From positions 1 through 39,741 of the forward strand of contig JAAWLO010000014.1 of assembly GCA_022797935.1 (NCBI GenBank): 39,741 nucleotides of DNA. Direction: 5' to 3'. A program made the position numbers and the translations under genes. The notes beneath the pieces were generated by a model. It did no database searches and had not been told where the DNA came from. It saw nothing but the letters and a program-made list of their open reading frames with translations. The stretch is from Oscillibacter sp. (lineage in GTDB: Bacteria; Bacillota; Clostridia; Oscillospirales; Oscillospiraceae). Below, piece after piece: positions 19,816-35,341 of this stretch. Positions within the stretch are counted from its first letter, which is position 1. Every line of letters begins with the position of its first letter.

Positions 19816-19860
19816 CGCCGTACCAGTCCTTTCCCATTCTCAATTCTGTGTACCCGCAAT

Positions 19861-19891
19861 TTGGGCGGAGAGAACTGCGCTCTCCGCCCAA
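19861..19891 (-). terminator. Hairpin closing the 17-gene operon
   Basis: TTGGGCGGAGAG pairs perfectly with CTCTCCGCCCAA, 9 nt after the stop codon of the last SnoaL-like gene. The T-tract lies on the plus strand side (GGTTTTTTT), while the minus-strand tail is only ATTGCG. Termination of the operon is therefore plausible but not canonical. Confidence 0.6.
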
Positions 19892-19899
19892 AGGTTTTT

Positions 19900-20442
19900 T
19901 TACAGTTCCAGCGTCGTGAAGCTCTGATCGCCCGTGCAGACCGCCCGGATATAATCACAGCAGAGTCCCGTCGTCTCAAAGGTGATGAGCCATTCCCCAT
20001 CCATCTTTTCCACATGGAAGGAACTGATATTCAGCGCCTTTTCCTTTTGCAGCTCCAGCCCGGTGGGGGGACCGTAGATGCTGGGACCGGTATTCGTCCC
20101 CGAGAAATAGTAGCGCATCCAGACCCGGTAGGCATTCTCCCCATTCGGCGCGGCAAAAATCGCGGGGATCTCAACCTTCAAATCCGGGAACGCCGAGCAC
20201 AGGCGCATGACCTCATGCTCCACCGCCGGAATATCACGAAGCACAAAGCCATTCTCCCGATGGACCTCCACATTGTCCGCGTAGATTTCATAGACGCTGC
20301 CGAACATCTTGTGGTTATAGATAAACTCCCAGAAACCCTTCAGATAGGCGCAGAGGCTCTCTCCGTCCGTGACCTGAATCGACCGAAGGGCCTGCTCCTT
20401 TGCGTGCAGCTGAGCCGACAGGTCAAAACATACCATGCTCAT
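19900..20442 (-). CDS. SnoaL/NTF2-like protein, A-type subunit of pair 3
   Basis: This 180-residue protein has the cone-shaped NTF2/SnoaL-like pattern. A helical N-terminus is followed by GSVYEIYADNVEVHRENGF, then a strand-rich half with FPDLKVEI, YRVWMRYYFSGTN, SIYGPPTG and a final DGEWLITFETT. No signal peptide is present, so it is cytosolic. It shares a run of 25 identical residues with the pair-2 A protein (21103-21645), showing a recent duplication. Its ATG overlaps the stop of the B-type partner by 4 nt (ATGA), implying translational coupling and a hetero-oligomer. Related folds serve as dehydratases, isomerases or cyclases; the activity here is unknown. It is the last gene of the operon. 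Confidence 0.82.
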   Translation of the reverse strand: MSMVCFDLSAQLHAKEQALRSIQVTDGESLCAYLKGFWEFIYNHKMFGSVYEIYADNVEVHRENGFVLRDIPAVEHEVMRLCSAFPDLKVEIPAIFAAPNGENAYRVWMRYYFSGTNTGPSIYGPPTGLELQKEKALNISSFHVEKMDGEWLITFETTGLCCDYIRAVCTGDQSFTTLEL

Positions 20443-21053
20443 CCCATTGCCTCCTCTTCCGCAGCGGCGCCCGGCGCCGTGTCCTTTTCCGCAAGTCCGT
20501 CGTAGAAATCCAGCAGCGACTTGGCGAAGGGCCGGAGATTGGCGGTGCGGCGGCGGATGGAGTCCTGACCATTGATTACAAACTCATCCACGATGCACCA
20601 GCGGCCTTCTACCTTCTTGACATAGCACTCACACAGGCAATACGCACTGTCCATGGCAAAGGTAGAGCCGTCTCCGAGACCGCCAAAGGTCGCTCCGCCC
20701 CGGGAGACCGTGCCCGAGTTGCTGGTCACCTGCCCGAAGTGGTATCCGCTCTCCTGGTCTCCCTCTGCGTAGATTTCTTTGAAGTTGCACTTCTTGTTCG
20801 GATAAAGGGAGAAGGTCGGCAGGGTCTCAACCTCCAGGGCGTCCTTGCCCCCCACCCAGGTTCCGACGCCCTCCAGCCGCGTGACTGTGTGGTCACAGTA
20901 ATAGTCGTAGCACAGTCCCGCTTGATGGAATTCCCAAATCAGACGGGTGTAGACCTCAAACTGCTTCGCCACTTCCTCGGGCGTCTCGAACTTACAATTG
21001 TAATAGTATTCTTCCAGGGCACGGCGCTCTGCCAATACTTCCTTGCGGCCCAT
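20439..21053 (-). CDS. SnoaL/NTF2-like protein, B-type subunit of pair 3
   Basis: This 204-residue NTF2-fold protein is a paralogue of the pair-2 B protein. Both begin MGRK, continue with EVLAER, and share ETPEEVAK with a later AGL-x-YDYYCD segment. The C-terminal strand region has ECYVKKVEGRWCIVDEF, followed by a tail rich in alanine and glutamate. It keeps the YDxYxD-xxxx-EG signature seen in the A-type proteins, so A and B are probably distant homologues. The frame ends in ATGA, overlapping the A-type gene, and carries that gene's ribosome site (AGGAGG) in its last codons. The function is unknown; subunit pairing is inferred from gene arrangement. Confidence 0.82.
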   Translation of the reverse strand: MGRKEVLAERRALEEYYYNCKFETPEEVAKQFEVYTRLIWEFHQAGLCYDYYCDHTVTRLEGVGTWVGGKDALEVETLPTFSLYPNKKCNFKEIYAEGDQESGYHFGQVTSNSGTVSRGGATFGGLGDGSTFAMDSAYCLCECYVKKVEGRWCIVDEFVINGQDSIRRRTANLRPFAKSLLDFYDGLAEKDTAPGAAAEEEAMG

Positions 21054-21102
21054 ACAAATCTCCTCTCCTGTTCGGATTTTTTAACCCTTTGTTTCAGGAC
21101 CT

Positions 21103-21645
21103 TTACATTTCAAGGGATGAAAAGCTCTTGTCCCCCGTACACACTGCCCGGATGTAATCGCAGGGGTGCATCGTCCGCTCCAGGACGATCAGCCACTCTC
21201 CGTCGATCTTCCGCAGGTAGAAGGCGCTGAGATTCAGGGCCTTTTCCCCTTCCATCCGCAGACCCGTAGGCGGTCCGTAAATACTGGGTCCTTTATTGGT
21301 GCCGGTAAAGTAGTAGCGCATCCAAACCTTATAGCCGTCCTCGCCTGTGGGAACCGCGAAGATGTCCGCAATGTCCACCTTCAAATCCGGGAAGGCGCCG
21401 CAAATCGCCATCGTTTCCTGCTCCACCTCCTGAATGCTCCGCTGGACAAAGCCGTTTTCCCGGTAGAGCTCAATATCGTCTGCGTAAATGTCATAAACAC
21501 AGCCGAACATCTTGTGATTATAGATGAATTCCCAGAAGCCTTTCAGGTAGGCGCACAGGCTCTCCCCGTCCGTCACCTCAATGGCCCGGATTTTGGCCTC
21601 GTGGGCATGGAGCGCGTCCGCCCGGGCAAAACACACCTGGCTCAT
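21103..21645 (-). CDS. SnoaL/NTF2-like protein, A-type subunit of pair 2
   Basis: This 180-residue cytosolic NTF2-like protein is nearly collinear with the pair-3 A protein. It has VTDGESLCAYLKGFWEFI, then GCVYDIYADDIELYRENGF, FPDLKVDI, YKVWMRYYFTGTN, SIYGPPTG and a C-terminal CDYIRAVCTGDKSF. The paired cysteines in that tail are conserved in pair 3 but only one is kept in pair 1. The start overlaps the stop of its B-type partner by 4 nt. A 49-nt gap without a hairpin leads on to pair 3. As in the other pairs, acidic and aromatic residues near YDIYAD may line the pocket; this is family inference only. Confidence 0.82.
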   Translation of the reverse strand: MSQVCFARADALHAHEAKIRAIEVTDGESLCAYLKGFWEFIYNHKMFGCVYDIYADDIELYRENGFVQRSIQEVEQETMAICGAFPDLKVDIADIFAVPTGEDGYKVWMRYYFTGTNKGPSIYGPPTGLRMEGEKALNLSAFYLRKIDGEWLIVLERTMHPCDYIRAVCTGDKSFSSLEM

Positions 21646-22247
21646 TCTTCCGCGCCTCCTTCCGTTTCCGTACAGACATCCTTTGCCTGCAGGTCTCCCA
21701 GCACCGTTTCATAGAAGGGCTGAGAGTTGGCCCGCTGGCGGCGGGTCACTTCCTCGCCGTAGCCCAGCCATTCGTCTTTGATGACCCAGCGGCCCTCCAC
21801 CTTCTGTACGCAGCACTGACAGAAGTTAACCTTGTCTTCCCGGTGAAAGACGGAGTCGTCTCCCCGGCCAGCAAGGGTAGCGCCCTTGGAGGAATAGACT
21901 CCCTCGTTGGCGGTCATCTGGCCGAAGCGGTAACCCTCCTCGGGACTGCCCACGCAGAAGATATCCAGGAAGTGGCTGTCGTTCTGGGGAAAGGGGGCGA
22001 AGGCGGGAATGGTATGAATTTCCGTCACGTCCACGCCGCCGGTCATCTTTCCGCCGCCCTCGTGGCGGATGACCGTTTCGTCGCAGTAGTAGTCGTATAC
22101 CAGGCCCGCCTGGTGATAGACCCAGATGAGTTTGGTGTAAACCTCGAAGAGCTTTGCCACTTCTTCCGGCGTTTCCAGCTTGCAGCTATAATAGTAGTCT
22201 TCCAGGGCCTTCCGCTCCGCCAGAACCTCTTTTCTTTTTCTGCCCAT
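21642..22247 (-). CDS. SnoaL/NTF2-like protein, B-type subunit of pair 2
   Basis: This 201-residue NTF2-like protein starts MGRKRKEVLAERKALEDYYY and contains AGLVYDYYCDETVIRHEGG and EEGYRFGQMTANEG. A CQCCVQKVEGRWVIKDEW strand has three closely spaced cysteines, and the tail is acidic (TEGGAEE). Its ATG directly abuts the stop codon of the glycerol-dehydrogenase-like gene (0 nt gap), and its end overlaps the A-type gene by ATGA. This tight packing indicates coordinated translation with the dehydrogenase, suggesting that the NTF2 pair acts on the ketone or alcohol handled by it. No known enzyme can be named with confidence. Confidence 0.82.
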   Translation of the reverse strand: MGRKRKEVLAERKALEDYYYSCKLETPEEVAKLFEVYTKLIWVYHQAGLVYDYYCDETVIRHEGGGKMTGGVDVTEIHTIPAFAPFPQNDSHFLDIFCVGSPEEGYRFGQMTANEGVYSSKGATLAGRGDDSVFHREDKVNFCQCCVQKVEGRWVIKDEWLGYGEEVTRRQRANSQPFYETVLGDLQAKDVCTETEGGAEE

Positions 22248-23354
22248 TCAGACCGCCTTTCTCTCGTGGTATTTCCGCCCCAGAGCATCTGCGGCCATGA
22301 GAGCCTGATAGACCATCTCACCGGTGACCTCGAAGGGCATGTTGTGAATGGTGCTGGTGGGCACACAGGCCTTTTCCGCCGCGTTGCGCACCACAGCCGG
22401 GTCCACATCGGGATAACCCAGATCCGCGAAGCAGATGGGCAAACCCACGGAAGCGCTGAAGGCCTGGACTTCCTCGAAATCCTCCCAGGCGTCCTCCAGA
22501 ACCAGCTGCGCCAGGGTACAGAAAGCCACGTTGAAGCCATGGAGCTGGCGGTGCAGGGCGGGGATGTGCGTAAAGCCCTTCTGGATGCCGTGGGCGGCGG
22601 CCAGGCCGCCGCTCTCGAAGCCAATGGTAGAGAGATAGGTGTTGGTCTCCACAATGACCTCCACCGCCTCGGTGCAGACGCCCGCTTCCACGGCTTCCTT
22701 GGCCTTAAGGCCGTCCCGCTTCAGGTTCTCCCAGCAAAGCTTTGCCAGGGCAGTAGCGGCCCGGGTGGGTTTGGCGTGGACCTGGTTGTCCTTGCCGGAG
22801 GCCCGGCAGGCCCGGGCTTCGAACCAAGTGGCCATAGCGTCACCCATACCCGCTACCAGCAGCTTGGCCGGGGCGGCGGCAATCACTGCCGTATCCACCA
22901 GGACCATGTTGGGGCAGCTGTCCAGGAACAGGTAGCGGTCGAAGGTGCCCTCCTCGTGGTAGACCACGCTGCAGGAGCTGCAAGGCGCGTCGGAAGAAGC
23001 AATGGTGGGAACTACTACCATGGGAAGCCCCGCGCTGTAGGCCACGCCCTTGGTGGTGTCCAGGGTTTTGCCGCCGCCGATACCGATCACGCAGCTGAAT
23101 CCGCCGCTCCGGGCGGTATCCGCCAGGCGGTCAATCAGGGACTGGCAGCACTCCCCCTCGAACTTCTCGTAGGCCAGGGTATAATCGCTCTTTCCCTGGA
23201 AGCACTGGTCCAGCACCGGGTGAATCATGGGGTCCACAAAAGGATCCATGATAATCAGCAGCTTTGTGCCCATACCGTCCAGGTACTTGTCCAGCTCCGC
23301 CAGGACATTGGGGCCCTGGACATACCGGGAGGGGCTTTTCAGTAACTTGCTCAT
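22248..23354 (-). CDS. Iron/zinc-containing alcohol dehydrogenase, glycerol dehydrogenase-like
   Basis: This 368-residue enzyme of the GldA/Fe-ADH superfamily oxidises or reduces a polyol or alcohol with NAD(H). It has VIGIGGGKTLDTTKGVA at 89-105 for NAD binding, the VVPTIASSDAPCS segment, and a metal-ligand aspartate in AGMGDAMATWFEA. Histidine ligands lie in GGLAAAHGIQKGFT and LHGFNVAFCTL. These fit glycerol dehydrogenase better than class III Fe-ADH. The ATG follows GGAAAGGATTG. It lies 30 nt after the TRAP large membrane subunit and abuts the pair-2 B gene. The operon thus carries two alcohol dehydrogenases of unrelated families plus a hydroxyacid dehydrogenase. The true substrate is unknown. 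Confidence 0.88.
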   Translation of the reverse strand: MSKLLKSPSRYVQGPNVLAELDKYLDGMGTKLLIIMDPFVDPMIHPVLDQCFQGKSDYTLAYEKFEGECCQSLIDRLADTARSGGFSCVIGIGGGKTLDTTKGVAYSAGLPMVVVPTIASSDAPCSSCSVVYHEEGTFDRYLFLDSCPNMVLVDTAVIAAAPAKLLVAGMGDAMATWFEARACRASGKDNQVHAKPTRAATALAKLCWENLKRDGLKAKEAVEAGVCTEAVEVIVETNTYLSTIGFESGGLAAAHGIQKGFTHIPALHRQLHGFNVAFCTLAQLVLEDAWEDFEEVQAFSASVGLPICFADLGYPDVDPAVVRNAAEKACVPTSTIHNMPFEVTGEMVYQALMAADALGRKYHERKAV

Positions 23355-23384
23355 GATGTTTCCAATCCTTTCCGCAGAGGGAAT

Positions 23385-24674
23385 TTAGATGGTGTAGCCC
23401 ATGATCTTGGGCAGGAACAGCACCAGCTGGGGGATGTACGTAATCAGCAGCAGCGCCACGACCGCCACGCCGATCCAGGGCCAGATATCCTTTGCCAGCT
23501 TGTTCAGGGGCACGCCGCCAATGGCGGAGGCCATGAAGAGGTTGGCGCCCAGAGGCGGGGTGACGAAGCCAATGGCCAGGTTCACAATGGTGACAATACC
23601 GAAGTGCACCGGGCTCACGCCCACAGCGGTGACAATCGGCAGGAGGATGGGAACCGTCAGAATGATGGCGGCGTTGGTCTCCATGAAGGTGCCCATGAAG
23701 AGATAGATGACGTTGATGATGAGCAGGAGGATAATCTTGTTCTCGGTAATGGCCAGAATCGCGGCCGCCACCTTGGCGGGAACCTGCTCGATGGAGAGGA
23801 TGCTGCCAAAGCCGGAGGACATACCGATGATGAACATGACCGGCGCGGAGATGGTCATGGCGTGCATAGCCAGATAGGGCAGAATCTTCAGGCTGACTTC
23901 CTTATAGACGAAGACGCTGACGATCACGCCCACCAGGCAGCCCAGCGCGGCGGACTCGGTGGGGGTGCAGATACCGCCGTAGATGCTGCCCAGGATGATG
24001 ACGGGCACCAGAATGGCGGGGATGGCGTCAATCCAGACGTGGAGGGTCTCCTTAGCGGAGAGCTTCACCTTGGTCTCCGGGGTGTAGCCCTTGCGCTTGG
24101 AGGAGAAATAGCAGTAGCCGATGAGGGCGCAGCCGAAGATGATGCCTGCGGGAATGCCGGCGGTGAACATCGAAGTCAAGGACACGCCGGCGGTGGTGGC
24201 ATAGACCACCATGCACACGCTGGGGGGAATCATGGTGCCAATGGCTCCGCCGATGGCCACCATGCAGGTGCTGTAGGAGCGGTCATAGTGCGCCTTCACC
24301 ATCTCGGGAATCATCAGCATGCCAATGGCGGAAACCGTAGCGGAGCCGGTGCCGGAAATGGCGGCAAAGATGATACAGGCGATAATCGTCACGATGCCCA
24401 GACCGCCGGTGATGTTGCCGAAGCCAAGCTTTGCCACGTTTACCAGGCGCTTGGAGATGCCGCCCTTCGCCATGATGTCGCCGGCAAAGGTGAACAGCGG
24501 GCAGGCCACCAGCAGATAGGAGTTGAAGCCATTGCTGGCCGTTTTTGTGAACGCGGAAAGAGAAACGGTTTCGAAGAGTTCAATGTTGATCAGGGAGGTC
24601 ATACCCAGGGACACCGCAATGGGCGCGCCCAGGATGAACAGCACAATAAAGATCAGAACCAATAACAGCATCAT
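23385..24674 (-). CDS. TRAP transporter large permease subunit, DctM type
   Basis: This 429-residue membrane protein with about twelve hydrophobic segments is the DctM component of a tripartite ATP-independent periplasmic transporter. It shows the typical opening FIVLFILGAPIAVSLGMTSL, an NSYLLVACPLFTFAGDIMAKGG segment, GTGSATVSAIG, and a TEAS-like PTESAALG motif in the middle. It uses a sodium gradient to import a substrate, usually an organic or sugar acid, delivered by the binding protein. It begins 5 nt after dctQ, so M and Q are translated together. Confidence 0.93.
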   Translation of the reverse strand: MMLLLVLIFIVLFILGAPIAVSLGMTSLINIELFETVSLSAFTKTASNGFNSYLLVACPLFTFAGDIMAKGGISKRLVNVAKLGFGNITGGLGIVTIIACIIFAAISGTGSATVSAIGMLMIPEMVKAHYDRSYSTCMVAIGGAIGTMIPPSVCMVVYATTAGVSLTSMFTAGIPAGIIFGCALIGYCYFSSKRKGYTPETKVKLSAKETLHVWIDAIPAILVPVIILGSIYGGICTPTESAALGCLVGVIVSVFVYKEVSLKILPYLAMHAMTISAPVMFIIGMSSGFGSILSIEQVPAKVAAAILAITENKIILLLIINVIYLFMGTFMETNAAIILTVPILLPIVTAVGVSPVHFGIVTIVNLAIGFVTPPLGANLFMASAIGGVPLNKLAKDIWPWIGVAVVALLLITYIPQLVLFLPKIMGYTI

Positions 24675-24679
24675 AGGAT

Positions 24680-25321
24680 TCAGCCCTCCTTCTTCCGTCC
24701 GTGCTTCGCCCGGAAGGCGGCTTCCTCAGCATAGGCCTCCTCCGGTACCTGCTCACGGTACTCGGCCCGGAGCTCGTCGTCAAAGCAGTAGTTATCCAGA
24801 CCGCCGTTCAGAACGCCGTAAGGATTGACGAAGACCGGCATGGAGCAGTTGAAGTGGCGGACCTTCCAGACCAGGGTCTGAAGGCAGCGGACGACGCCGA
24901 GGCCGTAGCCAATGGGGCCCGCCATATACATCCAGTTCTGGCTGATGTCAATGGTCAGGGCGCGGTTATTCCGCTCAAAGATGCGCACAACATTCGTCAG
25001 AGTGCCGCTGAAGAAGCGAATAAACAGAATCAGCATGACCACCTGGGTAAAAATCATCAGACTTTTCTGCACCTTTTCCGGCATCAGGCGGCGCACTGCG
25101 TCAATTTCGATGTGAATGCTGTTCCGGGTGGCATAGCTCAGACCGATGTAGCTCACCCAGACATAGCAGAATTTGCAGACTTCTTCACCCCAGGGCACGC
25201 CGGTACCAAAAAGATTCCGGCCAAAGACCTGGACCAGGATGATGATCAGCATGATAAAGAACATAATCATGCCGAAAAAAGCTTCCACGTTAATATCCAG
25301 CCAGTGGAGAATTTTTTTCAT
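24680..25321 (-). CDS. TRAP transporter small permease subunit, DctQ type
   Basis: This 213-residue protein has four predicted membrane helices and a VPWGEEVCKFCYVWVSYIGL segment, matching the conserved W-x-E-E of DctQ proteins. An unusually long polar C-terminal tail of about 70 residues follows (EYREQVPEEAYAEEAAFRAK). I place the start at the ATG at 25321, because the in-frame GTG at 25333 lies directly on the GGAGG ribosome site; the resulting spacing of 13 nt is slightly long. It pairs with DctM to form the membrane part of the TRAP system. Confidence 0.88.
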   Translation of the reverse strand: MKKILHWLDINVEAFFGMIMFFIMLIIILVQVFGRNLFGTGVPWGEEVCKFCYVWVSYIGLSYATRNSIHIEIDAVRRLMPEKVQKSLMIFTQVVMLILFIRFFSGTLTNVVRIFERNNRALTIDISQNWMYMAGPIGYGLGVVRCLQTLVWKVRHFNCSMPVFVNPYGVLNGGLDNYCFDDELRAEYREQVPEEAYAEEAAFRAKHGRKKEG

Positions 25322-25351
25322 AGCGTTTTCCACACCTCCGATTTACATAGA

Positions 25352-25383
25352 GCCGGGCGGACGAAGGTACTCCGCCGCCCGGC
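25352..25383 (-). other. Intercistronic hairpin between dctP and dctQ
   Basis: GCCGGGCGG and CCGCCCGGC form a perfect 9-bp stem, extended by CGGA/TCCG pairing towards the loop, 35 nt after the dctP stop. No T-tract follows on the minus strand. Such hairpins after binding-protein genes often protect upstream mRNA, giving excess binding protein; that role is inferred. Confidence 0.6.
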
Positions 25384-25418
25384 CCTTCCAATGTTCAGGA
25401 ATTAGGGGTGCTCTGTAT

Positions 25419-26522
25419 TCAGCGGGCGGCGTCCACCAGCTCCATGTACTGGTTGAACACATCCTCGCCGGTGATCTTCACGATTTCCGCCTTGGTGACC
25501 GCGCCCATCTTCTCGGCCATCTCAGCCTTGACGGCAGGATCCAGTTCGGCGACCTCAATGCCGTACTCGTCGGCAAACTTTTTCAGCAGGTCCTCGTTCT
25601 CGGCAATGTAGTGGTCTCTGTGGTACTCGTAGAGGACCTTGCTGGCCTCGTCGATCAGAGCCCGGTCCGTATCGTTAAGGCCCTCATACCACTCCTGGTT
25701 GCACACAGCCATGTCGCAGCCCATAACGTGATCGGTCATGGTGAAGTACTTCTGGACCTCGTAGAAGGAGTAATCCTCGAAGTTTACCGTGGCGCCTTCC
25801 TCGCCGTCAATCAGCTTCTGCTGGAGGGAGACAAAGAGCTCGTTCCAGTCGATGGAGACGGCGTCCACGCCAACGGCCTGCCACGCGGCGATCTGCACGG
25901 TGGAATAGCCGCGGATCTTCAGACCCTTCAGGTCATCCATGCTGTTGATGGGGCGGGCGCTGTTGTACAGCTCCCGGAAGCCCAGGCTCAGCAGAGCCAG
26001 ACCCTGGATGCCGATCTTGTTCCAGGAATTCATGATGAAATCGCCGCCCTCACCCTCGAAGAACTTGTGGAGGTGATCCAGGCTGTCGAAGGTGTAATAG
26101 TTATTCAGCAGGGCCAGCTCGGGAACCTGGGTCTCGAAGGAAACGGGGTTCAGCACGTCAATCTGGATGTCGTTCTCATAGAGCATCTCCAGAGCCGTGG
26201 TCCAGTCGCCCAGAACGCCGCCGGCATAAATCTCAACGGTGATGCGGCCGTTGGTCTCGGTCTCCAGGTACTCCTTGAAGGCCTCCAGGCAGCGCACGCC
26301 CACAGAGCCGTCGTTGTGAACGGTGGCAATCTTGATGGTCATAGGCTCCCCTTCGGCAGCGCCGCCGGAGGAACCGGAGTCACCGCTGTTCGCGGAGGAG
26401 GAATCGCCGCTGCCGCCGGAGGAACCGGAGCCGGAGTCGGAACCGCCGCCGCAGGCGGCCAGGCTCAGCACCATCGCGAGGGTCAGCACCATGGCCAGGA
26501 GGGCTTTCATAGACTTTTTCAT
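25419..26522 (-). CDS. TRAP transporter substrate-binding lipoprotein, DctP type
   Basis: This 367-residue extracytoplasmic solute receptor has a signal peptide with lipobox LSLAAC (C24), so it is membrane-anchored. A serine/glycine-rich flexible linker of about 35 residues follows. The mature domain has TIKIATVHNDGSVGVRCLEAF, GRITVEIYAGGVLGD, and LKGLKIRGYSTV with R204, the position that binds the carboxylate in most DctP proteins. That implies an acidic substrate. The start at 26522 has AAAGGAAA; the in-frame ATG at 26555 gives a lysine-rich extension without a ribosome site. It follows SnoaL-like pair 1. Confidence 0.92.
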   Translation of the reverse strand: MKKSMKALLAMVLTLAMVLSLAACGGGSDSGSGSSGGSGDSSSANSGDSGSSGGAAEGEPMTIKIATVHNDGSVGVRCLEAFKEYLETETNGRITVEIYAGGVLGDWTTALEMLYENDIQIDVLNPVSFETQVPELALLNNYYTFDSLDHLHKFFEGEGGDFIMNSWNKIGIQGLALLSLGFRELYNSARPINSMDDLKGLKIRGYSTVQIAAWQAVGVDAVSIDWNELFVSLQQKLIDGEEGATVNFEDYSFYEVQKYFTMTDHVMGCDMAVCNQEWYEGLNDTDRALIDEASKVLYEYHRDHYIAENEDLLKKFADEYGIEVAELDPAVKAEMAEKMGAVTKAEIVKITGEDVFNQYMELVDAAR

Positions 26523-26600
26523 TGTTCTTTTTCCTTTCTTCCTTTTCTTCTTCATTGCTGCTATTCACACACCCGGACAGGGCCGGGACGCTGTGACAGA

Positions 26601-27149
26601 TTAACCCAGCACCCGTTTATAGGCGCCGTTGCTGCGGATGCTGGCCTCTTTGGCGACGCGCCATTTGCCGTCCACCTTCTGAATCCAGCACTCGCACATT
26701 TCCAAGTCCTCACAATCCTCATAGCCCAGGCCGCTGCCGGGGCCGTCGGGACCGATGCCATCCGTGGAGGAGGCGTCATTCCACACAACCTGACCGAAGC
26801 GGAACCCGTTTTCCGGGTCGCCTACACAGTGAATCTCTTCGAAGACCACATTCAGGTCCGGCGTCCGGGCCAGAGCCCGCAGGGTGTCCAGCACCACATG
26901 GTCAGAGCCGGAGAGGTTGTCGCCGCCGTCCCGCTCCTCCTGGAGGCCGTCATAGTAAAAATCATAGACCCGGCCCACCTGCTTGTGCTTCCAGATGAGC
27001 ATCGTGTAGGCCTCAAAGAGGTCCGCAATGTCCTGGGGCTTCTCGTATTTGCAGCTGCGGACCACGTCCTCGTAGATCTTCCGCTCGGCGAGGATTTCGT
27101 CGGTGGTCATCTCGGTGATTTTCTTGCGTTTGATGTCTCGGATGTTCAT
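26601..27149 (-). CDS. SnoaL/NTF2-like protein, B-type subunit of pair 1
   Basis: This 182-residue NTF2-like protein has a B-type layout: EILAERKIYEDVVRSCKYEK, then LFEAYTMLIWKHKQVGRVYD, DPENGFRFGQVVWN and CECWIQKVDGKWRVAKEASI. It lacks the acidic tail of the other B proteins and carries a glycine-rich insertion (GIGPDGPGSGLGYED) in the middle. It is more diverged from pairs 2 and 3 than they are from each other. The ATG overlaps the A-type stop by 4 nt; here the A gene comes first, the reverse of pairs 2 and 3. It is followed by dctP after a 78-nt gap. Confidence 0.8.
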   Translation of the reverse strand: MNIRDIKRKKITEMTTDEILAERKIYEDVVRSCKYEKPQDIADLFEAYTMLIWKHKQVGRVYDFYYDGLQEERDGGDNLSGSDHVVLDTLRALARTPDLNVVFEEIHCVGDPENGFRFGQVVWNDASSTDGIGPDGPGSGLGYEDCEDLEMCECWIQKVDGKWRVAKEASIRSNGAYKRVLG

Positions 27150-27691
27150 TCGGCAGCCTCCTCTTCCGCGGACTCCGGCGCACCGGTGCAGGTGGCCCGG
27201 AGTTCGTCAATGGAGTACATGACAAATTCCTTGACAATCTGCCAGCGGCCGCTGATCTCCTTCACCGTGGCCATGCTCATGGCAATACAGGCATTGGGGT
27301 CAATGGCCTTATTGGTGGCGGGACCATAAATGCTGTAGGTCTTGTTGGTGCCGGACATCGTGAAGTAGCGCCAGAGCTTGTAGCTGCCGTCCGCCTGCTT
27401 CACCGCAAAGGTATCCCGCATGGACACCGTCATATCCGGGAAGGCGGAGGTGAGCTTCAGGGTATCCTTCATCATCTCGTGAGCGCCGTCCAGATAGACG
27501 CCGTTCTCCCGATGAATCTCCGCGTGGTCCGCATAGATGTCGTAAACACTGCCGATCCACTTGTGGTTGAAGATGAGCTCCATATAGAGCCGGAAGTACT
27601 CCGCCAAGGAGGCCTCGTCCGTCACCTTCAGATTCCGGATGGCCTCGTCCACGGCCATCATATCGTTGTAGAGCTTATCTGCCCGATACAT
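27146..27691 (-). CDS. SnoaL/NTF2-like protein, A-type subunit of pair 1
   Basis: This 181-residue A-type NTF2-like protein has VTDEASLAEYFRLYMELIFN, IGSVYDIYADHAEIHRENGV, FPDMTVSM, YKLWRYFTMSGTN, SIYGPATNK and SGRWQIVKEF, with a glutamate/alanine tail. The YDIYAD-x4-HRENG block, the SGTN block and SIYGP are common to all three A proteins and are the best candidates for pocket residues. It follows the EutH-type permease gene by 12 nt with AGGAGGAAATTGC before the ATG. Similar-fold enzymes dehydrate or isomerise hydrophobic or sugar-like substrates; no specific activity can be claimed. Confidence 0.8.
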   Translation of the reverse strand: MYRADKLYNDMMAVDEAIRNLKVTDEASLAEYFRLYMELIFNHKWIGSVYDIYADHAEIHRENGVYLDGAHEMMKDTLKLTSAFPDMTVSMRDTFAVKQADGSYKLWRYFTMSGTNKTYSIYGPATNKAIDPNACIAMSMATVKEISGRWQIVKEFVMYSIDELRATCTGAPESAEEEAAE

Positions 27692-27703: not shown

Positions 27704-28795
27704 TCAGATCTCGGATGTGGAAACGGGGGATTTGCGGGTAAGGTACATGGCCAGCGCCACGGCCAGGATGCCGCCGGTAATCTTTGTCACCGCCAGAGCG
27801 AAAATCATCTCCGGCTCCACGCTGGCGGTAAAGCCCAGATGGTCCCCCAGCACAGCGCTGCATGTCACCACCCAAGCGGTGGAGACAATGACGCCCCGGC
27901 GGTCCATATCCTTGGTCATGACGAACATGGACACAGAGTTGGCAAGGGCAAACACCATGGCGCTGACGCTCACGAAATCCAGCCCCAGCTTCTCCCCTGC
28001 CCAGGACAGAGGCTTCCGCAGAAGCTTCATCAGAACAGCCAGCACCGGGAAGGTTCCTCCCAGTACCACGGCGATTTCCGCCACGGTTTTCATTGCCCCG
28101 TCAATGGGGTCCATGCCGGGAATCAGCACCACGCCGGTAATGGAGGTAAAGGCCGCGCAGGCCAGTCCGCCCGCACACAGGATCCCCACCAGCCGGCCAA
28201 AGACCATGCAGCCCCGCGTCATCTTCTCCGGAGAGAGCGCCAGCCCAACGGCCAGCAGCGCCGCCAGCACCGCCACTGGGGCAATGTTCACCGCCGTCAG
28301 CCCCAGGGGGAACCCGGCAGCCAAGCCGCCCAGAAAACTCCCGAAGGGTAAGGCAATGAGTCCGATCAGCAGTCCCTGGATGAAAAAGGGCTGTTTTTCC
28401 TTCGGGATGATCCCCAAGCCCACGGGGATATTGAACACCAATGTAGCGCCCAGGGTGGAGGACACCAGCACCCCGGCCAGTTTTCCCGCCATGGGATCTT
28501 CCGCCAGCTCCATCGCCAGCTGATAGCCGCCCATGTCGTTGGCCAGAATGGCTCCCAACACGGCGGGGTCCATCCCAAACCGTGCGAACAGCGGGGCAAT
28601 GGTGGCGCTGACGCCCTGCTGGATAAGGGGGGTCAGGCACACAATGCCCACCATGCCCAGGGCCAGAGGACCCATGGTCTCGTAGCCCTTATCGAACTCC
28701 TTGCCCAGTCCCAGGCGGTCCCCCAGAATTTTGTCAAGGCCTCCCGCCAGGGCGCCGAAGGCCATGACCCAGAGTACAATCTCGTTAAAAGACAT
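27704..28795 (-). CDS. eutH: EutH-family permease
   Basis: This 363-residue polytopic membrane protein matches EutH, known as an ethanolamine carrier. It has about ten to eleven hydrophobic segments, a GALAGGLDKILGDRLGLGKEF segment near the start, ILANDMGGYQLA near residue 83, and VSVSAMVFALANSVSMF in the second half. No ethanolamine ammonia-lyase, Eut microcompartment shell or eutR/eutVW gene is present in the window. Its neighbours (creatininase family, SnoaL pair, TRAP) suggest a different amine or alcohol as cargo, or export of a product. The ATG follows AAAGGAG. The symbol denotes family only. Confidence 0.85.
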   Translation of the reverse strand: MSFNEIVLWVMAFGALAGGLDKILGDRLGLGKEFDKGYETMGPLALGMVGIVCLTPLIQQGVSATIAPLFARFGMDPAVLGAILANDMGGYQLAMELAEDPMAGKLAGVLVSSTLGATLVFNIPVGLGIIPKEKQPFFIQGLLIGLIALPFGSFLGGLAAGFPLGLTAVNIAPVAVLAALLAVGLALSPEKMTRGCMVFGRLVGILCAGGLACAAFTSITGVVLIPGMDPIDGAMKTVAEIAVVLGGTFPVLAVLMKLLRKPLSWAGEKLGLDFVSVSAMVFALANSVSMFVMTKDMDRRGVIVSTAWVVTCSAVLGDHLGFTASVEPEMIFALAVTKITGGILAVALAMYLTRKSPVSTSEI

Positions 28796-28851: not shown

Positions 28852-29781
28852 TTATTTCCGGTGGCCCCGCTCGTCGTGGTCCTTGTCGTAGCGAATGAAA
28901 TCGCCGCCGTTGAAGCCGTTGAAGCCCAGAGGATTGCGGAAGCCCAGAGGATTGATGCCCACGGGATGCTTCTCCATCAGCTCCTTGATGAACTGGGTAT
29001 AGCCCTCTACGACCTGCTCCACCAGGGCATCGCCCTTCTCCTTGCTGGCCTTGGTGGGGTTGCCGATGACGCCGTAATCCAGGTCATCCTTCTCCAGCAG
29101 GGCGAAGGTGCCGTCAAAGTGGTACATCTGCCACTTGTGGGACATCTCGCCGGGCGCCTTCTTCCACTTGCCGTCCACCAGGGGCGTGCCGCCGCCGTCA
29201 ATCGCCAGGTCCATATGAACCAGATCGCCATAGAGCGACAGAGCCATGGAAGTCTCGGCCTCGTCAGCGTGCCACATGAAGTCCTCCAGAACATTCTTGT
29301 TGTCGCCCAGGAAGTCATACCAGGTGGAAGCCACCGTGAAGTAACCCTCCATGCCCAGCTTGTGAACCGCCGTGATGAAGCTGCTGTCCGCGCCATGGGC
29401 AACCAGGAGGATAAACTTGTTGTAGCCCACATTGGAGGCGCCGGCAATGATGTCGTGAATCAGCGCAATGTTGGTCTCATAGTTCAGTGCAATGGTGGCC
29501 GGCATGCCCATGTGCATGTAGGGATGTCCGCCGTACATGGGGCAGGGCAGCACCGTGGCGCCGGAACGCTCGGCCACCTTGGCCGCCAGATGAATGGCGT
29601 TGAAGCTGTCCAGGCCGTTGGGGCAGTGCGGGCCGTGCTGCTCAATGGCACCCAGGGGGAGGATGGCCACGTCACAGACTTCTTTGGCATAGGCGATGTT
29701 CACGGGAGCGGTGTTGTTCTCAAAAAACACAGAGTCTCTCCGGTCCAGCTTAAACTGGGTCTGCTTCTTCATTTCAGCCAT
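28852..29781 (-). CDS. Creatininase family amidohydrolase
   Basis: This 309-residue protein has the creatininase-family metal-site motifs: LPLGAIEQHGPHCPNGLD at 41-58 (E47, H49, D58), LVAHGADSS at 126-134 where family members have a NGHGGN-like loop, and WHADEAETSM at 170-179 with a glutamate ligand. Family members hydrolyse cyclic or linear amides such as creatinine, or act in mycofactocin and riboflavin-related chemistry. The C-terminus carries a small repeat, NPLGFRNPLGFNGFNGG. The ATG at 29781 follows AGGAAAGG. It lies between the zinc alcohol dehydrogenase and EutH genes; an 89-nt gap upstream is GC-rich but has no terminator. Amide or ring hydrolysis in the pathway is inferred. Confidence 0.88.
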   Translation of the reverse strand: MAEMKKQTQFKLDRRDSVFFENNTAPVNIAYAKEVCDVAILPLGAIEQHGPHCPNGLDSFNAIHLAAKVAERSGATVLPCPMYGGHPYMHMGMPATIALNYETNIALIHDIIAGASNVGYNKFILLVAHGADSSFITAVHKLGMEGYFTVASTWYDFLGDNKNVLEDFMWHADEAETSMALSLYGDLVHMDLAIDGGGTPLVDGKWKKAPGEMSHKWQMYHFDGTFALLEKDDLDYGVIGNPTKASKEKGDALVEQVVEGYTQFIKELMEKHPVGINPLGFRNPLGFNGFNGGDFIRYDKDHDERGHRK

Positions 29782-29870: not shown

Positions 29871-30917
29871 TCAGGGTTTCAGCAGAATCTTGATGCGCAT
29901 TTCCTTCTTGGCCCGGACCATGTCCACCACCTGAGGCAGCTCCTCCAGGGGCCGGCAGTGGGTAATCAGGGGCTTCACCTTCAGCTTGCCCTCGGCCATA
30001 TAGCGCAGCACGGGTCCAAAGGAGTTGGGACTGGCCAGGGAACCTATCAGCTCCGCATCTTTGACAATCAGCGCGTTCATGGGAACGTCCACCATAGCGC
30101 CGTTGTACCAGCTCACCGCCACAATGCGGCCTGTGGGCTTCAGCGCCTGCACGGCGCTGTTCAGGGCGCTGTTGCTGCCGGATGTCTCAATGATGATCTC
30201 GGGACCTCCATCGGTCAGCTCCTTTGCCCGCTGAGCCACGTCCTCTTTGTGGTAATTGATGGTCTCCGCAATGCCGCACTCCTTGGCAATGGCCAGCTTT
30301 TCATCCCAGCTGCCGGCCACGATGACCTTGCTGGCTCCGGCAATGTTGGCAAGCTGGGCCGCCAGCTGTCCAATGGGTCCATCGCCGATTACCAGCACCT
30401 CCGCACCGGCGGGAATCCGGGCCTTGGTGACCGCGTACATGGCCGTGGCGGCGGGCTCCGCCAAGGCGGCTTCCTCCAGGCTCAGGCCCTCGGGAATCTT
30501 ATAAGTATGGCGCTGGGGAACGGCCACATACTGGGCAAAGACGCCCTGACGGTTGCGGTAGGAACCGATCACCTCCCGGTTCGGGCAGAGGTTGTAATGG
30601 CCCTTGCGGCACTCATCGCACTCGCCGCAGCCCAGACTTACGTCGGAGGTCACCCGGTCTCCCACCTGGAAGCCCCGGACATTCCTGCCCACTTCCACCA
30701 CCGTGCCGCTCCACTCGTGGCCGGGGATGATGGGATACTTGGTGTTGCCATTTTTGATGTGGACCATTTCCCCGGTGAGCAGCTCAATGTCCGTGGCGCA
30801 GAAGCCCGCATAGGAAATCTCCGCCAGAATTTCATCATCCTTGGGAACAGGTCTTGGAATTTCGGAGTACTCCATTTCCTCCGGCCGCATAAAACGAATG
30901 GCTTTCATCTCACTCAT
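29871..30917 (-). CDS. Zinc-dependent medium-chain alcohol dehydrogenase
   Basis: This 348-residue MDR enzyme resembles sorbitol, threonine and galactitol-1-phosphate dehydrogenases. Catalytic zinc ligands are C40 (GFCATD), H67-E68 (PGHEW) and E154. A structural zinc site is formed by C97, C100, C103 and C111. The nucleotide-binding glycine motif is VLVIGDGPIGQLAAQLA. It would oxidise a secondary alcohol of a polyol or sugar acid with NAD. Its ATG forms TGATG with the stop of the MBL-fold gene (1-nt overlap), showing coupling. Combined with the IolB-like isomerase and the hydroxyacid dehydrogenase, it suggests stepwise oxidation of a polyhydroxylated substrate. Confidence 0.9.
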   Translation of the reverse strand: MSEMKAIRFMRPEEMEYSEIPRPVPKDDEILAEISYAGFCATDIELLTGEMVHIKNGNTKYPIIPGHEWSGTVVEVGRNVRGFQVGDRVTSDVSLGCGECDECRKGHYNLCPNREVIGSYRNRQGVFAQYVAVPQRHTYKIPEGLSLEEAALAEPAATAMYAVTKARIPAGAEVLVIGDGPIGQLAAQLANIAGASKVIVAGSWDEKLAIAKECGIAETINYHKEDVAQRAKELTDGGPEIIIETSGSNSALNSAVQALKPTGRIVAVSWYNGAMVDVPMNALIVKDAELIGSLASPNSFGPVLRYMAEGKLKVKPLITHCRPLEELPQVVDMVRAKKEMRIKILLKP

Positions 30918-31723
30918 CAGGCGGACTCCTTTCTATATTGCAGCTCCTGCTTGCCGTTGATAATCTGAATTTCTCCCTGCCGGAAGCAGAGGGGCGCACA
31001 GCTCCCATTGTTCTCCAGCAGCCGGCAGAACTCCCCGGGGTCTCCGCCGTGCTCGGCGAAGGTCCAGAAATGGCAGGGCACGCCATACCGTGCGCCGCAG
31101 AGCCGGGCGGCCTCCGCCCCCTCGGCGGCATTCATATTGCCAAACCGGCCATTGATGGAGAGCATCGCGATATCCGGTTTGTATTCCGCCGCCTCCCGGA
31201 TAATTTCCTCCCGGAACGCCGTGTCTCCGGAGAAGTAAGCCCGGCAGCCCCCCATTTCCACCAGGACGCCGATGGCGTCCGGCGCCATATCTCCATGGTC
31301 CGCCGTGATGGCCTGGATGTGGACCGCATGGTCCTGATAGCTGTCTCCCCGGTCCAGACGCCGCCGCCGCTCCGGGGCAATGCCCATGGAGGACAGCTGC
31401 TCCTGACAGCTGGACGGCCCCAGAAAGAGCGGCGCCTTCACTCCCCGGGCAATCTGGGGAATGGCTTCGTAATCGAAATGATCGAAGTGCAGGTGGGTCA
31501 CCACATAGTAGTCCACCTCCAGCTCCTCCGGGGCCAGGAGAATGGGCGAGAGCCGCTTGAAGCCCCGGATTCTCTCACCGCAGTTGGTGAGGTAAGGGTC
31601 AATGACCAACCGGTTTCCCTCGGAATCCTTCAGGAGAAACCCGGCCTGACCCAGCCAGCAGACGGCCAGCTCATCGGGAGCAACGCTGACTCGCCGCAGG
31701 GTTTGGTGAAGATTCTTGTCCAT
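30917..31723 (-). CDS. UlaG-like MBL-fold metallohydrolase
   Basis: This 268-residue metallo-beta-lactamase-fold protein has VCWLGQAGFLL at 21-31 and the dinuclear metal motif THLHFDHFD at 76-84 (H77, H79, D81, H82). TADHGDMAPDAIG, YFSGDTAF and a final CHFWTFAEHGGDP segment follow. It resembles L-ascorbate-6-phosphate lactonase UlaG, so lactone hydrolysis is a reasonable guess. The ATG at 31723 follows AAGGAGG and the gene overlaps the IolB-like stop region by position only; a longer in-frame start at 31747 is rejected. It probably opens a lactone made by one of the dehydrogenases in this operon. Confidence 0.86.
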   Translation of the reverse strand: MDKNLHQTLRRVSVAPDELAVCWLGQAGFLLKDSEGNRLVIDPYLTNCGERIRGFKRLSPILLAPEELEVDYYVVTHLHFDHFDYEAIPQIARGVKAPLFLGPSSCQEQLSSMGIAPERRRRLDRGDSYQDHAVHIQAITADHGDMAPDAIGVLVEMGGCRAYFSGDTAFREEIIREAAEYKPDIAMLSINGRFGNMNAAEGAEAARLCGARYGVPCHFWTFAEHGGDPGEFCRLLENNGSCAPLCFRQGEIQIINGKQELQYRKESA

Positions 31724-31734
31724 GGAAGTCCTCC

Positions 31735-32592
31735 TTAATAGAGGCATCCCTCCAGCCAGGAATACCGCTCGTCAAACTGGACCTTGTACTTCTTGGTTTC
31801 GCCGGCCAAACCCCAGAGGAGGTAGGCCTGAGTTCCCGGCAGGGCCACCGTGGTGTGATAGCCGGTGGGCAGCGCTACGGCGGTGTTGTTTTCCTCGATC
31901 ACGTTGACCTCGTCCCAGAGCTTCTCGGAGAAGTCCATGCTCAGGTCGTAGCCGTGCTGAAGAAGGCCGCCCTTGCCGGTGCCCTCGGAGGTCACCTGGA
32001 AGGAGAAGATCTCATCCAGAACGACTTCCTCACCGGGACGCTCGTAATCGTGCCGGTGGGCGGGGAAGCCAATCCAGCCGCCGGGAACCGACACCGTCTC
32101 GCCGACAATCAGCAGCTTGCTGATGTGATCGTTGTGTTTGCCGGGTTGGCCAAAGATAAACCGGTACTTCCGCTTGTAGATATATTCGCCGGGCTCGCCC
32201 TCTTCAATCTCTTCGGGCGGGCAGAAGTACGGGGCGTTGCCCTCTTCGCAGTAGGCGGTGAACACCCGGGCCTCCATGCCCTTCTCGCTGTAGAGCTTTA
32301 CCTTGGCCTTGGGGGGAACATAGAGGGCGGTGGGCAGGTCGTCGTAAACATTGCCCCGGGTACCTTTGGCTCCGTCAATGACGGTCTTGCCCTCGTACTC
32401 CACCCAGCAGGTCACGTCGCCCTGCTGGAGGACAATGCCCTGTTCCTCCCCTGTGACGGTGTACTCCAACGTCTTCCCGGCAGGCAGCAGAATGCGGCCG
32501 AAGCCCATAAAGGTCATCTTGGAATTGCCCTTGGAGATGACGCTTTCATACCCCTCCAGGTCCTGGAAACGGTAAACGGTTGTATAAGACAT
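31735..32592 (-). CDS. IolB/KduI-like 5-deoxy-glucuronate isomerase family protein
   Basis: This 285-residue double-cupin protein matches the IolB family, whose members isomerise 5-deoxy-glucuronate in inositol catabolism. Metal-binding residues are visible in GFPAHRHDYERPGEEVVLDE (two histidines and a glutamate) and in a later GYHTTVALPG. The N-terminal cupin contains GFGRILLPAGKTLEYTV. No iolCDEG genes are in the window, so myo-inositol is not necessarily the substrate; a related aldose or uronate-to-ketose isomerisation is likely. The ATG follows GAGGAGG and lies 24 nt after the hydroxyacid dehydrogenase stop. Confidence 0.87.
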   Translation of the reverse strand: MSYTTVYRFQDLEGYESVISKGNSKMTFMGFGRILLPAGKTLEYTVTGEEQGIVLQQGDVTCWVEYEGKTVIDGAKGTRGNVYDDLPTALYVPPKAKVKLYSEKGMEARVFTAYCEEGNAPYFCPPEEIEEGEPGEYIYKRKYRFIFGQPGKHNDHISKLLIVGETVSVPGGWIGFPAHRHDYERPGEEVVLDEIFSFQVTSEGTGKGGLLQHGYDLSMDFSEKLWDEVNVIEENNTAVALPTGYHTTVALPGTQAYLLWGLAGETKKYKVQFDERYSWLEGCLY

Positions 32593-32616: not shown

Positions 32617-33561
32617 TTACAGTTTGTTCACAGGATACGTGACGGTTTTCCCCTCCAGCACCTCCCGCACACCCAGTGCGCTGTCCATGGCCATAGCCCG
32701 GAGGGCTCCGGCGCTGAGGGCGGCGTTGTGGGGGGAGAGAATGACATTTTCCATAGAAAAGAGGGGATTGCCGGCGCTGGGGGGCTCCTGCTCAAAGACG
32801 TCCAGCCCCGCTCCGGCGATTTTCCCGGCTTTCAGCGCCTCGATCATAGCGGCTTCGTCAATGACAGGTCCCCGGGCGGCGTTGATGACAAAGGCGCTGG
32901 GCTTCATCATCTCAAATTCCTTGGCTCCTACCAGATGGAAGGTGGAGGGAAAGAGAGAGGTATGTACAATCACAAAATCTGCGGTCCGGTAGACTTCCTC
33001 TGCGGAAACCATGGTCACCGGCAGCCCCTCCACGTCCTTCTGCTCCACAAAGGGATCGCTGGCAATCATCCGGGTGTCGAAGCCGGACAGCTTCTTCACC
33101 ACCATCCGGGAAATCTTGCCCATGCCAATGATACCAATGGTGCTGTCCTTCAGCTCAATGGTCTGGAAGGCATTGCGCTGCGCGAACTCCCCCTTCCGGG
33201 TAAGGCGGTCCATCCGCACGGTCCGCTTGCTCAGGGCCAGAACCAGCATGACAATGTGCTCCGCTACGGCGTTAAGATTGGAATAGGGCGCGTTTACAAT
33301 CTGAATGCCTTTGGCTGTGGCGTGGTCCACGTCAATGTTGTCCACACCCATGCCGTGCTTGGCCACCACTTTCAGTTCCGGCAGCGCGTCCATGATTTCC
33401 GCCGTGATGTGGGCCGAGCGGATGAGAATGCCGCCGCAGCCCTGGGCCTGCTGGATGATGTCCTCCGGCTTTACGGAGGTCCCCTGGACCACCTCAAAGG
33501 CCTCTTTCAAATAGGACACCGCATCCTGGTGAATATGTTCTGTCAAAAATACCTTCTGCAT
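32617..33561 (-). CDS. D-2-hydroxyacid dehydrogenase (phosphoglycerate dehydrogenase-like)
   Basis: This 314-residue NAD-dependent dehydrogenase reduces a 2-oxoacid or oxidises a D-2-hydroxyacid. It has IGIIGMGKISRMV for NAD binding (a G-x-G-x-x-S variant of the usual glycine motif), the substrate-binding arginine in NAARGPVIDE, the DVFEQEPP glutamate and the catalytic histidine in LSPHNAALS. There is no C-terminal ACT regulatory domain, so it is a catabolic-type enzyme rather than biosynthetic SerA. The ATG at 33561 follows GTGAGGG and overlaps the aldolase stop by a few bases (stop ends at 33570); a longer start at 33606 lies inside the aldolase gene. Its likely partner is a 2-oxoacid entering or leaving the aldolase. 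Confidence 0.9.
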   Translation of the reverse strand: MQKVFLTEHIHQDAVSYLKEAFEVVQGTSVKPEDIIQQAQGCGGILIRSAHITAEIMDALPELKVVAKHGMGVDNIDVDHATAKGIQIVNAPYSNLNAVAEHIVMLVLALSKRTVRMDRLTRKGEFAQRNAFQTIELKDSTIGIIGMGKISRMVVKKLSGFDTRMIASDPFVEQKDVEGLPVTMVSAEEVYRTADFVIVHTSLFPSTFHLVGAKEFEMMKPSAFVINAARGPVIDEAAMIEALKAGKIAGAGLDVFEQEPPSAGNPLFSMENVILSPHNAALSAGALRAMAMDSALGVREVLEGKTVTYPVNKL

Positions 33562-33569
33562 ACAATCCC

Positions 33570-34334
33570 TCACTTCCGGATGGCGTCCACAGCGCTCTTG
33601 CCCCATTTGACAATCATCCCCTGGTCAGAGGCCAGCAGGATGTACTGCACGCCCTTTTCTATCAGCTTTTTGGCCGCCTCAGGCGTTCCCGCCACGGTGC
33701 CCACGGCTTTGCCGGCCTTCAAGGTCTTGGACGTGATGGCCTCAATGGCGGCCTGCACTTCCGGATGACCCGGATTTCCCGGCACGCCGTAAGACTGCGA
33801 AAGGTCCATGGGGCCGATAAAGATAACATCCACACCCTCTACCTTCAAAACCTCGTCCAGGTTTTCCACACAGGTCTTCGTCTCACAGTGCGAGACAATC
33901 AGGGTGTTGGTGTTCGCGGTATCGATATACTCCTGCACGCCGCAGGTTCCGTACCCGCAGGCCCGGACGCTGGGAGACAGTCCCCGGACGCCCAGAGGCG
34001 TATACTTTACATAGGACACCAGATCCCGGGCCTCCTGCGCCGTGTCCACATTGGGCACCTGCACACCGGCGTAGCCCAAATCCAGGTTCTGGAGGATTTC
34101 CACCTGCTGGTTTTCCCGAACCCGCACCAGAGGCGTAATGCCCGCCGCATCAGCGGCCCGGACGATATTCGTCAGCTGTTCCCGGTCCACTGACACGTGC
34201 TCCGTATCCAGCACAAAGAAATCGAAGCCCGCCAGAGCCAGGAGCTCCACTACGGCCGGGTCCGTCAGCTTGACGAACGTTCCTATGGCGCTCTCTCCAC
34301 GCTGGATTTTTTGTTTCAGCAAATTCTCGCGCAT
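33570..34334 (-). CDS. HpcH/HpaI family 2-oxoacid aldolase
   Basis: This 254-residue class II aldolase resembles 4-hydroxy-2-oxo-acid and 2-keto-3-deoxy-sugar-acid aldolases. It has the GTFVKLTDPAVVELLALAGF opening, FVLDTEH with the catalytic base H46, VRV with R71, and metal ligands E151 (SHCETKT) and D177 (GPMDLSQS). It would cleave a 2-oxo-4-hydroxyacid to pyruvate and an aldehyde. The ATG at 34334 follows AAAGGAAG. It is the first gene of the 17-gene operon, 42 nt downstream of a consensus sigma-54 promoter; the longer frame to 34622 would cross that promoter and is rejected. Confidence 0.92.
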   Translation of the reverse strand: MRENLLKQKIQRGESAIGTFVKLTDPAVVELLALAGFDFFVLDTEHVSVDREQLTNIVRAADAAGITPLVRVRENQQVEILQNLDLGYAGVQVPNVDTAQEARDLVSYVKYTPLGVRGLSPSVRACGYGTCGVQEYIDTANTNTLIVSHCETKTCVENLDEVLKVEGVDVIFIGPMDLSQSYGVPGNPGHPEVQAAIEAITSKTLKAGKAVGTVAGTPEAAKKLIEKGVQYILLASDQGMIVKWGKSAVDAIRK

Positions 34335-34375
34335 TCCACACGCTTCCTTTCCCACTGAATCTCGACCCGTTATAA

Positions 34376-35285: not shown

Positions 35286-35341
35286 GATATCCGTCTCCTT
35301 TTAAAATTTTTGGCTCTCTTAAGGTGTTCTATCCTACCGTC

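Follow-up and report, generated by a model that had tools for sequence, protein, structure and literature searches.

Adjacent A- and B-type SnoaL-like genes in an Oscillibacter operon and four further genomes: candidate subunits of a two-part enzyme linked to transporters

Enzymes of the SnoaL/NTF2 fold are, to our knowledge, homomers. The SnoaL/SnoL-type polyketide cyclases and hydroxylases (PF07366) belong to the same domain family as two protein types, here called A and B, that are encoded as adjacent gene pairs on the Oscillibacter sp. contig JAAWLO010000014.1 (39,741 nt, hereafter termed the window; genome 84% complete, 158 contigs); the context of the SnoaL/SnoL-type cyclases is antibiotic synthesis, whereas that of A and B is catabolic. 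In comparison with solved sequences, the A/B profile matched SnoL best (8r2b and 2gex, E ~0.001), and for the A/B pairs, PDB searches by sequence yielded no more than weak matches. The bile acid 7-dehydratase BaiE of gut clostridia is a SnoaL-like dehydratase and in this respect resembles the fold family of A and B; it was absent from the nine matches that the A/B profile gave in the PDB at E<=1. Paralogous subunits with a common active site are known from the ChsH1/ChsH2-type hydratases. According to an excerpt of PMC13101464, the latter are of the MaoC family and thus of another fold than A and B, and BaiE is a trimer of one protein. The setomimycin cluster encodes two NTF2-like homologues, StmL and StmN (33% identity), for which, as for A and B, a heterodimer is envisaged; unlike A and B, they are part of a Streptomyces polyketide cluster, and in the available excerpt the heterodimer is proposed, not shown (PMC11476836). 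NTF2 proteins may be catalytic or may bind ligands (PMC3924330, excerpt). A heteromeric SnoaL pair of catabolic function was not found as the subject of any paper in the open literature, judged mostly by title.

The window contains six reading frames of 180-204 aa on the minus strand that form three A/B pairs (see Table 1). The original prediction had described them together with an ATGA at every pair junction and with sequence blocks distinguishing A (SIYGP, SGTN/TGTN, HRENG/YRENG) from B (EILAER/EVLAER, FRFGQ/YRFGQ/YHFGQ); coordinates, lengths, junctions and blocks were all recovered from the sequence. Our favored interpretation, held with modest confidence, is that each A/B pair would constitute a heteromeric SnoaL lyase or isomerase acting on imported substrates. 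In the Pfam PF07366 profile search (cut-off 28.4 bits), A2 and A3 scored above and A1 (16.2 bits) below the cut-off, and B1, B2 and B3 gave no match; at E<=0.1, SnoaL was detected in 5 of 16 B-type proteins scanned, B1-B3 being among the 16 (best E 2.2e-5). Homology between A and B is evident from their profiles, which hhalign aligned over 173 columns with E 4.6e-39, and B is therefore placed in the same fold family as A. Each of the window proteins aligned over one SnoaL domain, not over two in one chain. The GAGGAGG or GGAGG strings that precede the second gene of each pair (window 20442, 21645, 27149) are codons of the Glu-rich C-terminal tail of the first gene.

The scan across species (one genome per species, 84,980 species; two peptide patterns taken from A) revealed, besides the window's own genome, five loci in four genomes: a Eubacterium metagenome-assembled genome (MAG; L029), Butyricicoccus pullicaecorum DSM 23266 (L030), Candidatus Flavonifractor intestinipullorum (L031, L033) and a Dysosmobacter MAG (L032); more carriers probably exist than the two patterns detected. 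Further A/B genes are present on three other contigs of the window's genome, as pairs on C20 (L025) and C152 (L026) and as a B-A-B arrangement on C105 (L027). In total, whole-genome searches and gene maps (gene calls outside the window by a simple codon-score script) gave 15 A, 18 B and five two-domain genes of the type discussed below in the five genomes. Every A is located beside a B (15/15); 15 of the 18 B genes are paired, two represent the extra member of a B-A-B (L027, L029) and one lies apart from any A (L029 14739-15329). Adjacent A/B pairs thus recur, with 15 pairs in five genomes, and a regular solitary occurrence of A and B, which would have spoken against the original prediction, was not observed.

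Among the genomes searched, A/B pairs are rare and sporadic. In sets that overlap, and with the genome of the window or of the named carrier itself included, carriers comprised 1 of 60 relatives (A2 as sole query), 2 of 400 genomes within the family (A profile), 2 of 394 within the order, 2 of 398 within the phylum (one of these, G936, with the two-domain protein only), 1 of 10 within the genus Flavonifractor, 1 of 87 within the Butyricicoccus family and 1 of 3 within the family of G936 (two-domain protein only); the family, order and phylum scans scored at most eight candidates in each genome. In all of these scans, a single-domain A or B gene was reported from no genome other than a carrier. 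Because the five carriers include three MAGs (by title) and the genome of the window is incomplete, an absence of partners is to be taken as soft evidence. B1 had no match in phage records and a single one in plasmid records (Halobellus), and A2 matched 9 of 72,556 plasmid records, all at less than 60% identity.

The gene order is A-B in six and B-A in nine of the 15 pairs, which requires at least two order changes by parsimony, on the A tree and on the B tree alike; the B-A-B arrangement might have been a possible route for such a change. The identical ATGA overlap of 4 nt at all three window junctions is a trait of the window, not of the A/B family: seven of the 15 pairs overlap by 4 nt and the other eight are separated by 4 to 50 nt. 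The distance matrices of A and B (the three extra B genes were excluded from pair matrices and trees) correlate with r 0.88, a value as high being reached in none of 10,000 permutations, and when the comparison is restricted to the six pairs from the genome of the window, the true A/B pairing ranks 1 of 720. In all seven ortholog comparisons the nonsynonymous rate (dN) was well below the synonymous rate (dS) in both partners, which indicates purifying selection on both A and B; dS was close to 1 or higher, and saturated in one case. The slower-evolving partner is B in the pair-1 type (3/3 comparisons) and A in types 2/3 (3/3). The earlier statement that pairing is kept while order is not holds for the larger set: the 15 pairs show two changes of order, their distances mirror each other, and the residues are shared out as described below; the physical heteromer deduced from it goes beyond these observations.

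In the phylogenetic tree supplemented with the plasmid two-domain relatives, A (97/94) and B (98/92) form sister clades (A+B 100/99), best read as the products of one duplication. The single-domain protein encoded on a Halobellus limi plasmid (L115 5932-6411; SnoaL 36.6 bits) is their sister (95/93) and the nearest outside relative found; topologies with this protein inside A or inside B were rejected (p-value of the approximately unbiased test, p-AU, 0.008 and 0.013). Its gene is single, follows four longer genes annotated as ester cyclase and has no partner of its kind, whereas A and B are paired. An earlier, narrower tree gave weaker support (A 79/58, B 83/88). A third two-domain type (GN/GC, see below) was included in the first tree only, minus the L025 10108 copy; Halobellus Hal1-4 and two Phaeobacter proteins were excluded from the last tree.

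The pocket loop G-x-[HN] ... G-x-x-T is a defining mark of the SnoaL family. All three of its residues (N/H, S/T and T) are present in 15 of 15 A, as Asn/Ser/Thr throughout, and in 2 of 15 B, where taken singly N/H occurs in 2, S/T in 8 and T in 5 of the 15 proteins. The complete set is also found in the Halobellus protein and in 11 of 17 N-domains of the two-domain family; the C-domains of the latter possess His (17/17), where A has Asn, and carry Gly in place of Ser. The reverse holds for the second Cys of a C-x-C motif, which is conserved in all 15 B, in the Halobellus protein and in 16 of 17 N-domains, and in none of the 15 A. B shows no variation at Thr49, Trp53 and Thr89 (B1 numbering), residues that the Halobellus protein shares and that occur in 94% of N-domains; A has Thr at the Thr49 and Thr89 positions in 40 and 47% of the proteins, respectively, and mostly Tyr at the Trp53 position. 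Arg23, Cys33 and Gln120 are invariant residues of B's own. Judged from these alignments, A and B keep different parts of the ancestral conserved set, the pattern that is expected of subunits in one composite enzyme after a duplication. This shared-out conservation is the best evidence for a heteromer, although it does not prove that A and B touch.

A two-domain protein with the annotation “ester cyclase” (~330-410 aa; Priestia, Deinococcus, Sinorhizobium, Phaeobacter and others) likewise comprises two unequal SnoaL domains, in one chain instead of the two chains of A and B; a literature search on its gene cluster found nothing, and against PDB sequences it matched ester cyclases and SnoL. It is encoded in all five A/B carriers (reading frames of ~361-384 aa in L028 on contig C128 of the window's genome, L030, L031, L093 and L094). 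Relatives were detected in 62 of 72,556 plasmid records, 52 of them over at least 80% of the query. Their annotated neighbors form a varying mix of LacI, HisD-like dehydrogenase, aldolase/citrate lyase, cupin, alpha/beta hydrolase, SDR and sugar ABC/MFS transporter genes. Like the window, two Deinococcus plasmids have several SnoaL genes in a row, four in QL22 (L118 11944-15742) and three in AB2017081 (L122 9956-13111), and the Halobellus plasmid has five (L115 1342-6411); several sets per operon thus appear as a theme of the wider group. The Deinococcus rows have HisD-like, aldolase, cupin and sugar ABC genes as neighbors and represent an uncharacterized catabolic cluster. With this family, and with StmL/StmN, for which an excerpt of PMC11476836 proposes an NTF2 heterodimer, the paired architecture that the original prediction did not recognize from elsewhere is less isolated than assumed.

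The motifs, with the Cys in the N-domains, prompted the idea that A and B are the split halves of the two-domain protein. The corresponding topologies were rejected (p-AU 0.002 for B with the N-domain, 0.0008 for A with the N-domain and, narrowly, 0.049 for A with the C-domain); with only six two-domain rows they were not (FN+B 0.375, FC+A 0.365, FN+A 0.248). The rejected topologies argue for two separate origins, i.e. two-part SnoaL proteins probably arose at least twice. The same genomes encode a third SnoaL-like type with two domains (~337-347 aa), which has LacI genes or SSF symporters in its vicinity (L027 7435-8478, L025 10108-11052, L028 3678-4688, L033 6773-7786); the L025 copy stops early (314 aa), and the L027 copy, the sole one scanned, scored above the Pfam SnoaL cut-off.

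The A/B pair is tied to transporters more than to a fixed enzyme set. In a hand count from the gene maps, nine of 15 pairs are immediate neighbors of a transporter gene (EutH-like, TRAP, SSF or ABC), and three further ones (window pairs 2 and 3, Dys2) share their gene run with a transporter; Fla3, Fla4 and Dys3 have no abutting transporter. In L029, L030, L031 and L032, the type-1 unit is preceded by a homologue of the window's EutH-like permease (41-74% identity). In Butyricicoccus, the succession is LacI, EutH-like, A, B and SSF, the core catabolic genes being absent from the 20.5 kb stretch, and the genome encodes one two-domain protein. The reverse case is L098 (6617-15056; genome G075, 80% complete, for which no A was reported in the family scan), where the core catabolic genes (identity to the window: HpaI 87%, hydroxyacid dehydrogenase 66%, IolB-like 83%, IolM-like 83%, creatininase-like 74%) occur with a different TRAP transporter and without A/B on 20 kb. 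For the three sets of the window, the original prediction had considered different substrates, successive steps or stereoisomers; the linkage to different transporters favors one pair per imported compound, and each pair would handle this compound or its first product and feed the core route. The likeliest chemistry is that of an acid-base lyase or isomerase, given the invariant A loop and the neighboring genes for dehydrogenases, an isomerase, a hydrolase and an aldolase. The SSF symporter gene directly behind the B-A pair of L025 appears split over two overlapping frames (8523-9401 and 9145-10092), be it by a frameshift, as a pseudogene or through an assembly error, and the Dysosmobacter B-A pair of L092 (6613-10167) lies behind a gene for a membrane H+-pyrophosphatase, not a solute transporter.

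Several observations weigh against a heteromer. The 18 B outnumber the 15 A, with one B away from any A, i.e. the ratio is not strictly 1:1; joint inheritance without contact would also yield mirrored distances; the Halobellus relative is a single gene; A failed to form a clean clade (2 changes) in another tree, built from fewer rows; L098 manages without A/B on the stretch seen; and non-catalytic NTF2 proteins exist (PMC3924330, excerpt). If A and B were instead separate homomeric enzymes of consecutive steps, with adjacency and coupling only for balanced expression, the extra B genes without an A of their own and the change of the slower partner between pair types, as if each had its own role, would be accounted for, and the one-protein dimers among catalytic NTF2 proteins (KSI) and the BaiE trimer (PMC13101464, excerpt) would be the precedent. 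We regard such an arrangement as unlikely, since the retention of different ancestral residues in A and B fits a shared unit better, none of the 15 A lacks an adjacent B, and the one-chain relative of G936 (L095), located between a LacI-type regulator and an ABC transporter, occupies the place of a carrier's B-A-B: this transporter resembles the one behind the B-A-B in L027 (binding protein 35, the two permeases 46 and 52 and the ATPase 46% identity).

Four transporter classes, and here and there LacI-type regulators, accompany the pairs instead of a fixed enzyme set; this association and the core enzymes of L098 without A/B would also agree with non-catalytic ligand binders, i.e. carriers or sensors serving the neighboring transporter or regulator, which might still be heteromers and for which NTF2-like examples are known (PMC3924330, excerpt). 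This explanation appears rather improbable, as the A loop is invariant (15/15) and common to the two-domain family, which is found among dehydrogenases, aldolases, hydrolases and cupins, and as domain scans of the six window proteins revealed no fused transporter or DNA-binding domain. The presence of IolB-, IolM- and IolN-like genes in the same run, together with an iolE search that found no place in the window, might point to the A/B pair as a substitute for the inosose dehydratase (IolE) of the inositol pathway; the three Iol-like scores, however, are all well under their equivalog cut-offs, and Butyricicoccus has EutH-like, A, B and SSF without Iol-like genes on 20.5 kb. As the leading explanation this substitution was rejected and is thought very improbable: iolE scored over the cut-off elsewhere in four of the five carriers, the window's genome included, and the route is thus not simply that of inositol.

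For the favored heteromeric lyase or isomerase, we propose the following course. One ancestral gene, probably encoding a homomer, would have been duplicated once; A would have retained the canonical pocket loop Asn/Ser/Thr and B the Cys/Trp/Thr positions, so that the functional unit needs both, and the pair would have diverged as a unit before it came to adjoin transporters of several types. Physical contact between A and B, the stoichiometry of their complex, its chemistry and its substrate are inferred. Working intracellularly, the pair would most likely catalyze a beta-elimination or a keto-enol shift by acid-base chemistry, as a lyase or isomerase, its presumed substrate being the imported compound or its first oxidized product, with isomerase, hydrolase and HpcH/HpaI aldolase then completing the pathway. 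A farther-reaching version is a modular obligate heteromer whose active unit requires residues of both subunits, which arose by complementary loss after the one duplication and has an independent parallel in the one-chain two-domain family; bacteria would set copies of the pair beside different transporters and so gain access to one new imported substrate at each step. We put this version forward tentatively, as somewhat less likely than not. The recurrent two-gene SnoaL with shared-out conservation suggests a two-part enzyme acting on newly imported molecules in a few gut bacteria. If correct, asymmetry would be a repeated solution in the SnoaL/NTF2 fold, with a two-gene version and an independent two-domain “ester cyclase” version, and the pairs would provide a handle on uncharacterized catabolic operons; B. 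pullicaecorum DSM 23266, a named strain with a simple version, opens the question to testing.

The three pairs of the window are part of a same-strand gene run (36976-19900, ~17 kb) with intergenic gaps of -37 to +89 nt, consistent with one operon (see Table 1).

Table 1. Features of the window, in order of position.
Feature	Position	Strand	Remarks
13-pair hairpin just after A3, possible operon end	19860..19892		terminator score on + strand only
A3, A-type subunit, pair 3	19900..20442	-	180 aa; ATGA overlap with B3; SnoaL 31.6 bits
B3, B-type subunit, pair 3	20439..21053	-	204 aa; reading frame, tree, residue check
A2, A-type subunit, pair 2	21103..21645	-	180 aa; ATGA overlap with B2; SnoaL 35.0 bits
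B2, B-type subunit, pair 2	21642..22247	-	201 aa; reading frame, tree, residue check
Glycerol dehydrogenase-type alcohol dehydrogenase, between DctM and B2	22248..23354	-	NF006941 467.7 bits, cut-off 336
TRAP transporter (DctM 23385-24674, small permease 24680-25333, DctP 25419-26555)	23385..26555	-	profile matches
B1, B-type subunit, pair 1	26601..27149	-	182 aa; ATGA overlap with A1; B clade; Cys-x-Cys present, N/S/T loop lost
A1, A-type SnoaL-like subunit, pair 1	27146..27691	-	181 aa; A clade; N/S/T loop intact
EutH-like permease, directly upstream of A1	27704..28795	-	NCBIfam EutH subfamily 403 bits, below cut-off 482
Creatininase/IolN-like	28852-29781	-	158.1 bits, equivalog cut-off 245
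IolM-like dehydrogenase	29871-30917	-	220.5 bits, equivalog cut-off 450
MBL-type hydrolase	30917-31747	-	below equivalog cut-off
IolB-like isomerase	31735-32592	-	116.2 bits, equivalog cut-off 205
2-hydroxyacid dehydrogenase	32617-33606	-	
HpcH/HpaI aldolase	33570-34622	-	
Corrinoid protein	34650-35285	-	
RACo-like reductive activator	35342-36976	-	
AraC-type (AraC/PocR-like) regulator, divergent	37299-38654	+	
URO-D-family methyltransferase, divergent	38642-39676	+	

At the upstream end of the run and beyond it (34650-39676), the corrinoid protein, the RACo-like activator, the URO-D methyltransferase and the AraC/PocR-like regulator constitute a corrinoid methyl-transfer set. The corrinoid and URO-D genes suggest that a methylated substrate may be involved. 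Similar corrinoid methyl-transfer genes are located beside the A/B loci of L031 and L032, each of which has, as recognized by eye, one more URO-D-like reading frame.

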